Shown here: positions 6,618 to 10,602 of the stretch, piece after piece
Numbering within the stretch: position 1 is the stretch's first letter
How the letters are laid out: each line of letters opens with the position of its first letter
Source of the DNA: Solidesulfovibrio carbinolicus
Lineage (GTDB): Bacteria > Desulfobacterota > Desulfovibrionia > Desulfovibrionales > Desulfovibrionaceae
Assembly: GCF_004135975.1 (NCBI RefSeq)
Contig: NZ_CP026538.1
Span: 2,728,001 to 2,792,000 of the forward strand
Length of the DNA: 64,000 nt
Reading direction: 5' to 3'
Notes under the pieces: generated by a model
Database searches by the model: none
The model's input: the letters and a program-made list of their open reading frames with translations, nothing else
What the model was told of the DNA's origin: nothing
Translations under genes and position numbers: made by a program

Positions 6618-7473
6618 CGGCGGCTGTTCGCCGGACTTCCCGGACGAGGCCCTGGCCGCCGAGCTAGACGAGCTGCGCCAGTTGCTCGACGGAACGGACA
6701 AGCCGGCCTGCGCCGAGGAAGGCGAAGGGCTGGTCATCATGCGCCTGTGCTCGGGGCTGACGCTTCAGGAATGGGAGGGGCTTGGCGCGCGGCGCGACCT
6801 GCGCGACTGGATGGCCCTGCCCATCACCGCCAACCCGTTCCCCTATCTTACGCGCATCCAGCAGACGCTTTAGGAACTGGTCTTTCTCTCCGAACACGAT
6901 CCCCTGACCAAGCTTCACAACCGGGGCGCGTTCGAGCGCATCCTGGCCGCCGAACTCATCCGCTCCTCGCGCTCGGGCCAGCCCCTGGCCCTGGCGTTGC
7001 TCGACCTCGACAATTTCAAAACGGTCAACGACACCTACGGCCACCCTTGCGGCGACCGGGTGCTGGAAACCATGGGCGCGCTTTTGGCCGCCGAAAAGCG
7101 CACCTACGACTACGCCGCCCGGGTCGGGGGCGAGGAATTCGCCCTGATCCTGCCGGGCGTCGGCATGGTCCGGGCCGAAGGCATCGTCGAGCGCCTCATC
7201 GAATCGGCCCGCACCCTTCGGGTGGTCTGCGAGGGCGTGGACACGCCCCTTTGCGTGACCCTCTCGGCCGGCATCGCCTGCACCAAGGGCAAGGTGGCCA
7301 TCAGCCGGGAGAAGCTCTACGCCATGGCCGACGAGGCCCTTTATATGGCCAAGGCCGAGGGCAAGGACCGCGTCCGCTGCGCCCCCATCGCCGACCTGAC
7401 CGGAACCCCTGAAAAAACCCTGGTGCGAGCCGATGAAAAGCGCTTTCTTTTCACCGGCACGACCAAAGGATGA
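6601..7473 (+). pseudogene. Diguanylate cyclase (GGDEF) interrupted by an in-frame TAG
   Basis: One reading frame runs from ATG 6601 to TGA 7471-7473 with a single TAG at 6871-6873. Before the stop are ~90 residues of a regulatory N-terminal region. After it comes a complete GGDEF domain: HDPLTKLHNRGAFE, LLDLDNFKTVNDTYGH, GGEEF (7126-7140) and ALYMAKAEGKDRV. GGEEF is an active-site variant compatible with making cyclic di-GMP. The stop sits in the linker helix (QQTL-stop-ELVFLSEHD), where Gln is usual, so CAG to TAG is the simplest explanation. The first start codon after it (TTG 6997) would lose the first ~35 residues of the GGDEF fold. The gene overlaps prfB by 17 nt and the next gene by 4 nt (ATGA), so it looks recently broken or misread. 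Confidence 0.8.
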
Positions 7474-8312
7474 TACGGCGTATGCCCGAAGCCTCAAATC
7501 CCAACGCCACCCTGTCGGTGGCCATCTTAAGCGGCAAGGGCGGGGTCGGGAAATCCAACCTGACCCTGAACCTGAGCTATGCCCTGTTTAGGGCCGGCCA
7601 CCGCGTGCTGCTCATGGACTTCGACGTGGGCCTGGCCAACGTCGACGTGCTGCTCGGCCTGTCGCCGGAAAAAAACCTCCAGGACCTGTTTCGCCCGGAA
7701 GTGACCGCCGCCGAGGTCATGCTGGCCGTCGAACCCGGCGGTTTCGACTTCCTGCCGGCGGCCAGCGGCGTGCCCGAACTGCTGGAGATGGACGACGACA
7801 TGCGCGAGGTGCTGTTCCAAAAGCTCAACGGCGTGTTTGCCGGCTACGACTACCTCATGCTCGACCTCGGAGCCGGCATCTCGCCCACGGTGTTGTCCGT
7901 GGCCGCCATGAGCCAGATGCGGGTGCTGGTCGTCACTCCGGAACCGACTTCGCTGACCGACTCCTACGCCGTCATCAAGGTGCTGCACACCCAATACGGG
8001 ATTTCGGACTTCCATGTGCTGGTCAATCAGGTGGAGCGGGTCTCGGACACCCAGGCCACCTTTGCCCGGCTGTCGGCGGCCTGCAGCCATTTCCTGGGCT
8101 TCGAACCCCAGCTCATCGGCGGCGTGCGCCATGACCAGGCCCTGCCCGACGCCGTGCGCCGCCAGATTCCCCTGCTGCGCCACGCCCCCAAAAGCCCCGC
8201 CGCCCTGGACATCGTCAGCGGCGCGGTGCGGCTGCACCGGGTGCGCCAGCAGCGCCACGACGAACTGCTCGGCGCGCCGGTGCTGGGAAAAATTCCAACG
8301 ATTCGCAAGTAG
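7470..8312 (+). CDS. MinD/ParA-family ATPase, FlhG (FleN)-like
   Basis: This 280-residue deviant-Walker ATPase has the P-loop AILSGKGGVGKSNLTLN near its N terminus, the Walker A' block LLMDFDVGLANVDVLLGL and a Walker B-like YLMLDLGAGIS. There is no N-terminal DNA-binding segment and no clear C-terminal amphipathic MinD helix. These features fit FlhG/FleN, which limits flagellar number and placement, better than MinD or ParA. ATG 7470 overlaps the cyclase stop as ATGA. ATG 7482, preceded by AAAGGA, is an alternative start. Its neighbours (PilZ, GGDEF) fit a motility or c-di-GMP theme, but no flagellar genes are in view. Confidence 0.8.
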   Translation: MIRRMPEASNPNATLSVAILSGKGGVGKSNLTLNLSYALFRAGHRVLLMDFDVGLANVDVLLGLSPEKNLQDLFRPEVTAAEVMLAVEPGGFDFLPAASGVPELLEMDDDMREVLFQKLNGVFAGYDYLMLDLGAGISPTVLSVAAMSQMRVLVVTPEPTSLTDSYAVIKVLHTQYGISDFHVLVNQVERVSDTQATFARLSAACSHFLGFEPQLIGGVRHDQALPDAVRRQIPLLRHAPKSPAALDIVSGAVRLHRVRQQRHDELLGAPVLGKIPTIRK

Positions 8313-8423: not shown

Positions 8424-8699
8424 ATGAACAAAAGCGAACTCATCAAGACCCTGGCCGAGACCAAGGACCTGCACATCGACGAAGCCGCCGACATCGTCAA
8501 CGCCTTTGTCGATTCCGTCAAACAGGCGCTTATCAACGAAGACCGCGTGGAAATCCGCGGCTTCGGCAGCTTCAAGATCAAGGGCTACAAGGGCTACACC
8601 GGCCGCAACCCCAAGTCCGGCGACGTGGTCACCGTGGCCCCGAAAAAGCTCCCCTTCTTCCGCCCCGGCAAAGAACTCAAGGAATATCTCAACAAGTAG
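8424..8699 (+). CDS. HU/IHF-family DNA-binding protein
   Basis: This is a 91-residue bacterial histone-like protein that bends and compacts DNA as a dimer. It spans the full family length, with the N-terminal helices MNKSELIKTLAE, the beta-arm block EIRGFGSFKIKGYKGYTGRNPKSGD and the C-terminal FFRPGKELKEYLN. Start ATG 8424 was chosen because all family members begin MNKxEL and a GAGG lies at 8412-8415. An upstream in-frame extension is not conserved-looking. A TTGACG at 8316-8321 and the extended -10-like TGGTATGAAAT at 8343-8353 lie upstream, but their spacing is too long to call one promoter. Confidence 0.93.
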   Translation: MNKSELIKTLAETKDLHIDEAADIVNAFVDSVKQALINEDRVEIRGFGSFKIKGYKGYTGRNPKSGDVVTVAPKKLPFFRPGKELKEYLNK

Positions 8700-8704
8700 C
8701 CCCT

Positions 8705-9562
8705 ATGCGCACCCTGATCACCTTGCTGCTGGTCCTGGCCGTCACGGCCATGACCACGGCGGCGGCGTTGGCCGCCGAGCCGGCGTTGACCATCCTCTAC
8801 GCCGGCAATACCTACGGCTATTTCGACCCCTGCCCCACCTGCGGCCCGCAAAAGCTCGGCGGCCTGGCCCGGCGGGCCAGCGCCCTCGAAGCGGCCCGGG
8901 CTTCCGGCAAAACCCTGGCCGTGGCCGGCCCCTGGGAATTCGCCCCCGAGGTCTCGGCCGCCCCGCCCGAGCCGGCCAAGCTCCCGGCCGTGGCCAAGGC
9001 CCACGAAAAGCTTCGCTACGACGCCCTGGCCGTCACGCCCCAGGAAGCGGCCATCCTGTCGGCCAACAAGGCCGCCCTGCCCAAGGGGGCCGTGCTGCTT
9101 GGCGACACGCCGGCCACGGCCATCGTCAACGTCGGCGGCAAACAGGTCGGGCTGATCTTTTTCCCCATGCCCAAGGACATCAGCGCCGCCGTGCCCGACA
9201 AGCTGATGGACGCCGCGGCCAAGGCGGCCGGCGAATTGCGCGGCAAGGTCGCCCTGGTGGTGGGGATAAGCCCCTGGGGAGCCCTGGACGAAGAGGCCTT
9301 CATCAACGCCAAGTCCGGCGCGGTGGACGTGCTCTTGGGCAGCGGCGGCGGTTCGGGCTTTGCTTCGCGCACCTCCAAGGACGGCCGCACCCTGTGGACC
9401 CGGGCCTACATCAAGGGCAAGACCGTAAACCGCCTCGATCTGGCCGCCCTGCCGGGCGCGCCGGGGTTCGCCTGGAAGATCGGCGAGAACTTCACGGCCA
9501 AGGTCGATCCCCTGGACGAGAACTTCCCGCAAGATCCGGCTGTCGAGGTCATGCTCAAGTAA
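8705..9562 (+). CDS. Exported 5'-nucleotidase/UshA-like protein with CPTC motif (Cys paralog)
   Basis: This 285-residue protein has a Sec signal peptide (residues 1-24, ending ALAA) followed by LTILYAGNTYGYFDPC and GGLARRAS. That layout recalls the first strand and the GG(L/M)ARR block of UshA-type metallophosphoesterases. The metal ligands usually found in the NDxHG motif are replaced by GNTYG, so phosphatase activity is doubtful. Cys43 and Cys46 form CPTC, suggesting a thiol-disulfide or metal site in the periplasm. The tandem paralog at 9613 has Sec in place of Cys46. The gene begins 5 nt after the HU stop. Family assignment is inference; the real function is unknown. Confidence 0.7.
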   Translation: MRTLITLLLVLAVTAMTTAAALAAEPALTILYAGNTYGYFDPCPTCGPQKLGGLARRASALEAARASGKTLAVAGPWEFAPEVSAAPPEPAKLPAVAKAHEKLRYDALAVTPQEAAILSANKAALPKGAVLLGDTPATAIVNVGGKQVGLIFFPMPKDISAAVPDKLMDAAAKAAGELRGKVALVVGISPWGALDEEAFINAKSGAVDVLLGSGGGSGFASRTSKDGRTLWTRAYIKGKTVNRLDLAALPGAPGFAWKIGENFTAKVDPLDENFPQDPAVEVMLK

Positions 9563-9612
9563 TTTCGGCCGCCTCCCTTCGGGCGGCGACTTGCAACCTT
9601 TCGAGGCCCATC

Positions 9613-10500
9613 GTGCACACCGTTTTTCACCGCTTGCTGGCCGCGACGTTGTTCCTGGCCCTGACGGTCGTCTGCGGCCTTCCGCCCCAGGCCCAGGCCC
9701 AGGAACCGGCGCTGACCATCGTCCTGTCCGGCAACACCTACGGCAACTACGAGCCCTGCCCGTCCTGAGGCGGCAAACTCGTCGGCGGGCTGGCCCGGAG
9801 GGCCACCTTCATCGAATCGCTGCGTAGCGCCGCGCCTGGCCAGGAACGTACCCTGGTCATTGCCGCCCCTTTTGAAATCCTGTCCGACGGCCCGGAAAAA
9901 AAGCCCGAGCCGCGCCGCCTGCCGGCCATCAGCCAGGCCATGACGCGCCTTCGCTACGACGCCGGGGCGTTGCTGCCAAGCGAAGCCGCCTATCTCAAAA
10001 GCGCCGACGCGCCCATCCCGGCCGGCTTCACGGTCCTTGGCGACAAGCCGGTGACCGCCGTCCTCGACAAGGGCGGGATCAAGGTGGGCATCGTCTTTTT
10101 CCCGGCCCCGGCCGATCTGACCAAACCCACACCCCCGGCCGTGGGCGACGCCGTGGCCGAGGCGGCCAAAAAACTGCGGCCGTCGGTGGCGCTGGTCATC
10201 GGCGTCAGCGGCATCGGCATGATTGACGAGGAAGCCTTCCTGGCCGCCCATCCGGGCGTCCTGGACGTGCTGCTTGGCAGCGGCCTCAACGCCGGCACGG
10301 CCGGCCGGCCAGGCCCCGGCGGCAAGACGCTTTTCGCCCGGGCCTACACCCGGGGCAAGACCGTCAATCGCCTGGACCTGCTCCAACTGCCGCAGGGATC
10401 GGATTTCGCCTGGAAGCCGAACGAGAACTTCAAGGCCGAGGTGGTGAACCTTGACGAGGCCTATCCGGCTGATCCCGAGATCAAGAAGCTGTTCGAATAG
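9613..10500 (+). CDS. Candidate selenoprotein: exported UshA-like paralog with CPSU motif (UGA at codon 52)
   Basis: A single frame from GTG 9613 to TAG 10500 contains one internal TGA (9766-9768). The encoded 295-residue protein is a paralog of the gene at 8705 throughout: GNTYGNYEPCPS-U-GG...GGLARRAT aligns without gaps around the site to GNTYGYFDPCPTCGP...GGLARRAS, and both end with YxxGKTVNRLDL and FAWKxxENF. The UGA therefore stands exactly where the paralog has Cys46, making a CxxU motif (Cys49, Sec52). A signal peptide (residues 1-30, ending AQAQ) predicts export. A 6-bp stem with a GGA loop follows 28 nt after the UGA. No other stop or frameshift occurs in the remaining 243 codons. 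If UGA is not read as Sec, this is a pseudogene with a TGC to TGA change. Confidence 0.72.
9791..9805 (+). promoter_or_regulatory. Candidate bacterial SECIS hairpin
   Basis: TGGCCC (9791-9796), loop GGA (9797-9799) and GGGCCA (9800-9805) form a 6-bp stem. The loop starts with G and lies 28 nt after the UGA, within the range usually described for bacterial SECIS elements. The Cys paralog has the same stem at the same distance (8865-8879), because the codons for LARRA are shared, so the hairpin alone is weak evidence. Confidence 0.45.
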
Positions 10501-10534
10501 CCTGGCGTCGCCGCCGCGCGCCGCCTGGCAAGGC

Positions 10535-10585
10535 AAAACGCCCCGCTCTCCCCGCAGTCCGGCTGCGATGAGGGCGGGGCGTTTT
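10535..10585 (+). terminator. Intrinsic terminator after the CPSU gene
   Basis: A perfect 12-bp inverted repeat, AAAACGCCCCGC (10535-10546) with GCGGGGCGTTTT (10574-10585), ends in a T run 35 nt after the stop codon. The A/T ends make it usable in both directions, which suits the convergent glycosyltransferase gene. Confidence 0.85.
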
Positions 10586-10602
10586 GACGCCGTAGGGGAG
10601 GC

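Follow-up and report, generated by a model that had tools for sequence, protein, structure and literature searches.

Adjacent cysteine and putative selenocysteine versions of a predicted exported UshA-like protein in Solidesulfovibrio carbinolicus

UshA-like proteins are represented by two listed selenoprotein families. UshA-like (seleno)protein family 2, with the motif CxxU, is annotated in GenBank (for example WP_420705249.1) and is listed in a 2026 review (PMC13188914). Its sister family, COG0737 UshA-like with the motif CxU, was included in a 2008 ocean-metagenome survey (PMC2398784) and in a 2022 review (PMC9312934). Here, we analyze a 64,000-nucleotide stretch of the genome of Solidesulfovibrio carbinolicus (the window), in which two UshA-like genes lie in tandem, the second with an in-frame UGA at the place where the first encodes a cysteine (Table 1). 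Both genes match the NCBIfam model NF049981, 'UshA-like (seleno)protein family 2', over its full length and with about 280 bits, i.e., twice the cut-off of 140; the UGA-containing gene (Sec gene) scores 285.7 bits (3.2e-85, model positions 1-262). Both also carry the family motif, as CPSU in the Sec gene and as CPTC in its paralog. Given this match and the literature listings cited above, the selenoprotein family is already known, and an earlier note on this DNA erred in announcing a new selenoprotein from a family with no described selenoprotein. Beyond the cited reviews, a search of the literature on selenoproteins and Desulfovibrio retrieved nothing on family 2. The headline claim is thus not a discovery; the remaining interest lies in the function of the protein and in a Sec/Cys pair that is stable throughout the genus.

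The Sec gene opens with a GTG, as judged by eye, and closes with a TAG at 10498-10500. Its sole internal stop is the TGA at codon 52, which bears out the earlier description of a frame of 295 codons that is intact but for this codon. With TGA translated as a residue, the CPSU motif lies within GNTYGNYEPCPSUGGKLVGGLARRA. The tandem paralog is intact, encodes 285 aa and aligns with the Sec gene across 260 aa; the alignment confirmed that Cys46 of its CPTC motif shares a column with the TGA, as the earlier note had also proposed. By eye, both proteins have signal-peptide-like N-termini, that of the Sec gene ending in AQA.

Table 1 Features of the UshA-like tandem locus in the window
Feature	Position	Strand	Details
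FleN/MinD-like ATPase, conserved upstream neighbour	7470..8312	+	name by eye from sequence; upstream on same strand in 65/71 loci
HU-type DNA-binding protein, conserved upstream neighbour	8424..8699	+	PF00216; directly upstream in 66/71 loci
Tandem paralog, Cys46 where neighbour has Sec	8705..9562	+	48% identity; NF049981 5.5e-84
Sec gene, UshA-like (seleno)protein family 2, putative exported	9613..10500	+	295 aa with Sec52
UGA codon, CPSU motif	9766..9768	+	TGA 64 / TGC 20 / TGT 1 in 85 homologs
Putative bacterial SECIS hairpin	9788..9808	+	loop GGA 9797-9799, 28 nt after UGA; -12.9 kcal/mol
Probable terminator, strong hairpin ending TTTT	10534..10586	+	-43.4 kcal/mol, z -6.4

A frame that is good except for a lone stop is what a young pseudogene looks like, and a working Cys paralog adjoins; the TGA could hence be a true premature stop, or a sequencing error, with the tandem Cys copy doing the work. 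The homologs argue strongly against this. We searched genomes of the same family by tblastn and aligned the homologs (85 sequences), thereby running the comparison that the earlier note had suggested. The column of codon 52 holds TGA or a cysteine codon and no other (Table 1), and each of the 64 TGA homologs, which are spread across the family, has exactly one in-frame TGA and no further in-frame stop. On the 3' side of the TGA, the Sec gene and its six nearest orthologs differ with a dN/dS of 0.18-0.30, as compared to 0.16-0.21 for the Cys copy in the same comparison. Purifying selection thus still acts on the protein past the UGA. Pseudogenization or sequencing error was rejected on the grounds of TGA conservation and dN/dS, to which the occurrence of TGC in genomes that lack Sec genes can be added, and we regard it as most improbable.

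The genome of S. carbinolicus (4.69 Mb, rated 100% complete) encodes selA (606 bits), selB (361 bits, above the curated cut-off) and selD (332 bits), as well as a tRNA-Sec with the anticodon tca, so that the machinery to be expected from the earlier note is all present in the same genome. Its selD (L017, C1:2303906-2304832) itself has one in-frame UGA near the start (MSIELVKTVKAAGU) and resembles the Sec-containing SelD proteins that are already known. A selA match is present in 230 of the 288 family genomes, and 153 match NF049981 (150 above its cut-off). The gene is present without a selA hit in 19 genomes. Ten of these have TGC at the site, no TGA and no selB above the cut-off. The other nine have a TGA copy; in seven of them the missing selA is probably due to assembly gaps, because selB is still found over the cut-off, and in the remaining two (G269, G169), whose assemblies are fragmented, SelB-like hits stay below the cut-off. 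None of the outcomes that the earlier note had named as speaking against Sec (no Sec machinery, sense codons other than Cys, extra disabling mutations) occurred. Members of one genus (G005-G007) carry the Cys version of the gene (L071-L073) at the same place between the HU gene and dapA despite encoding selA and selB. This is a case of Sec/Cys exchange in which the Sec system was kept, and Sec is therefore not obligatory.

The bacterial SECIS model, as given in the 2026 review (PMC13188914), is a hairpin whose apical loop comprises 3-9 nt and carries a G within the first two positions; it usually lies 16-37 nt past the UGA. The hairpin downstream of codon 52 has this spacing and such a G; it is supported across genes and weak if taken alone. 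Loops in the Sec genes read GGC, GGA or GUC and lie 28 nt after the UGA. Of 56 unique Sec sequences, 52-56 form each of the six core pairs of the hairpin, and the loop is always GG or GU; of 19 Cys sequences, 10-18 form these pairs and 12 have the GG loop. The Cys gene of the window retains a similar stem. Against a synonymous-codon null, in which codons were redrawn with each gene's own usage, folding energy was lower by a mean of 2.18 sd in Sec genes versus 0.70 in Cys genes, and a stricter count of consecutive pairs yielded P<0.05 in 18/64 Sec genes and 0/20 Cys genes; these statistics derive from related sequences and from a GC-rich region that encodes the conserved GGLARRA. Compared to dinucleotide shuffles of 48 nt, the window's own hairpin has a z of -1.0, which is not significant for a single gene, and the hairpin core is absent in four Sec genes belonging to two small groups (L078-L081).

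Bacteria are known to read through UGA without Sec as well, and a near-cognate tRNA could in principle place another amino acid, e.g., Trp or Cys, at codon 52. Yet the sense codons at this site all encode Cys and never Trp or Arg, and the full Sec machinery is accompanied by a SECIS-like hairpin, so that we give such a decoding almost no credence. That the UGA is instead a Sec codon in an exported UshA-like protein is strongly supported by sequence, with Sec insertion and export as predictions. The Sec reading of the earlier note is thus sustained by the machinery, the codon across homologs, the SECIS-like hairpin, selection, and the presence of Cys where Sec genes are missing. SelA, SelB, SelD and tRNA-Sec of the genome would read the UGA of codon 52 as Sec, and the hairpin just 3' of it would guide the insertion. 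Taken as a whole, the explanation that 9613-10500 encodes an exported member of NF049981 with a UGA read as Sec under guidance of the hairpin is very probably correct.

In the genus, each of the 14 tandem loci (from 12 other genomes and S. carbinolicus) has the Cys copy first and the Sec copy second, and each has exactly one TGA, always at the equivalent of codon 52. The tandem is thus found in every one of the 12 sampled congeneric relatives with the gene, and the sole member that lacks the gene is represented by an assembly that is 69% complete. One genome (G264) has two tandem loci, one of which clusters with that of another genome, and contamination is possible there. In the phylogenetic tree, the 14 Cys and 14 Sec copies of the genus form two well-supported groups that are sisters (SH-aLRT 93), and the duplication is therefore older than the diversification of the genus. 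Birth of the Cys paralog by duplication before this diversification is the best explanation. Three Sec/Cys changes suffice for all 85 sequences. The simplest reading of the tree, which has long branches and whose root was not inferred, would be an ancestral Sec with repeated switches to Cys, given that the Cys groups lie among Sec copies. Cys second copies in other genera are unlinked (L074-L077) and lack this synteny. The 50-bp gap between the two genes (9563-9612) is filled by a small hairpin, GCCGCC...GGCGGC, which lacks a U run and whose folding energy is not better than chance.

It is tempting to propose that the tandem copies form a working pair, either as a selenium-dependent switch, with the Cys protein as a backup when selenium is scarce, or as partners that exchange electrons, although we consider this rather doubtful. 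If true, the pair would amount to a natural experiment on what Sec contributes in a non-thioredoxin-like fold, with the two versions side by side. The genus holds Sec and Cys versions next to each other in one genome, and other relatives, which have kept their Sec genes, carry the Cys version at the matching syntenic position; the cost and benefit of Sec are therefore testable.

Of the conserved surroundings, dapA lies downstream in 51/71 loci and has mostly moved away in the genus of the window. The setting of FleN/MinD-like and HU genes upstream and dapA downstream looks like old synteny and not like a functional clue. No gene for a redox partner is linked to the Sec gene, a plasmid search gave no match, and the probable terminator (Table 1) was not flagged by a simple promoter/terminator scan.

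AlphaFold2, supplied with 58 window and locus sequences, gave a confident model (pLDDT 94.6, pTM 0.93), whose best matches among solved folds are 5'-nucleotidases (Foldseek E ~5e-15, TM ~0.7). The predicted protein shares the fold of the phosphoesterase domain with UshA, CD73 and the Thermus 5'-nucleotidase (2z1a), and could on account of this resemblance still be a nucleotidase or phosphoesterase whose CPxU pair serves structure or regulation alone. Catalytic 5'-nucleotidases, however, have a second, C-terminal substrate-binding domain and about 500-560 aa in the solved relatives, whereas the window protein has 295 aa and is without that domain. They also keep their metal-site signatures (DxH, D, GNHE, GH, GGH), which are not conserved in family 2, as judged for the alignable signatures from the family alignment and from profile alignments to solved chains. 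In these alignments, DAGD is replaced by an AGAYE-like sequence, GNHE by APEE, GHSG by SPWG and GGHT by GSGP, and the first metal-site motif, which we take to be DxH in nucleotidases, reads NTYG. A search of the window protein for a Pfam metallophosphatase match was likewise negative. With the signatures lost, a nucleotidase function is not favoured and appears improbable to us.

The only invariant cysteines of the family are those of the CPxC/U pair, located between NTYG and GGLARR. The protein would accordingly consist of a single 5'-nucleotidase-type phosphoesterase domain with replaced catalytic signatures, and its CPxC/U pair would adjoin what was once the active site. Because the signatures are replaced and this pair provides the sole invariant cysteines, hydrolysis is unlikely and a thiol/selenol role is likely; redox chemistry at the CPSU pair is thus the likelier activity compared to phosphate hydrolysis. 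Judging from the motif and by analogy, we see about an even chance that the product acts in redox reactions as a soluble protein of the periplasm, its selenenylsulfide couple cycling between selenenylsulfide and thiol/selenol. The main rival to this redox role is a periplasmic sensor, carrier or detoxification protein whose CPxC/U pair binds a soft metal, a metalloid or reactive sulfur species and shuttles no electrons. Adjacent thiol and selenol groups in a protein without other conserved cysteines would suit such binding, and SoxB, which handles sulfur compounds, has the same fold, but metal, arsenic or sulfur genes are not linked to the locus, whose conserved neighbours are HU, FleN/MinD-like and DapA. 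We hold the binding role to be possible, if less probable than the redox role. In either case, Sec would be used in a non-thioredoxin-like fold whose original chemistry has apparently been lost.

In comparison with the described families, nothing sets the Sec gene apart from NF049981, and both window genes have CxxU or CxxC at the same place; the consulted part of the 2026 review makes no mention of a tandem Cys/Sec arrangement (PMC13188914). With NF041198, the model of the COG0737 family (PCGU), the window proteins share an N-terminal UshA-like domain in which Cys and Sec immediately precede GGLAR. They differ from it in having CxxU and not CxU, and they reach 40-47 bits (Sec gene 39.7) versus a cut-off of 275 for this model of about 520 aa. 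A PCGU UshA-like protein with one in-frame TGA (L114, 1027-2466 on the minus strand) has a cytochrome-type C-terminal part, being fused to a cytochrome c554-type multiheme domain; by analogy, this fusion is a hint that UshA-like Sec domains may take part in electron transfer. Seven loci from other families of the phylum (L103, L104, L105, L106, L109, L111, L113) encode distant UshA-like proteins with one in-frame TGA and a CPxU-type motif (CHTU in L103). They score below both NCBIfam cut-offs (83-111 bits versus 140 for NF049981 and 135-237 versus 275 for NF041198) and appear to be selenoproteins, as yet unnamed, that are intermediate between these two families.
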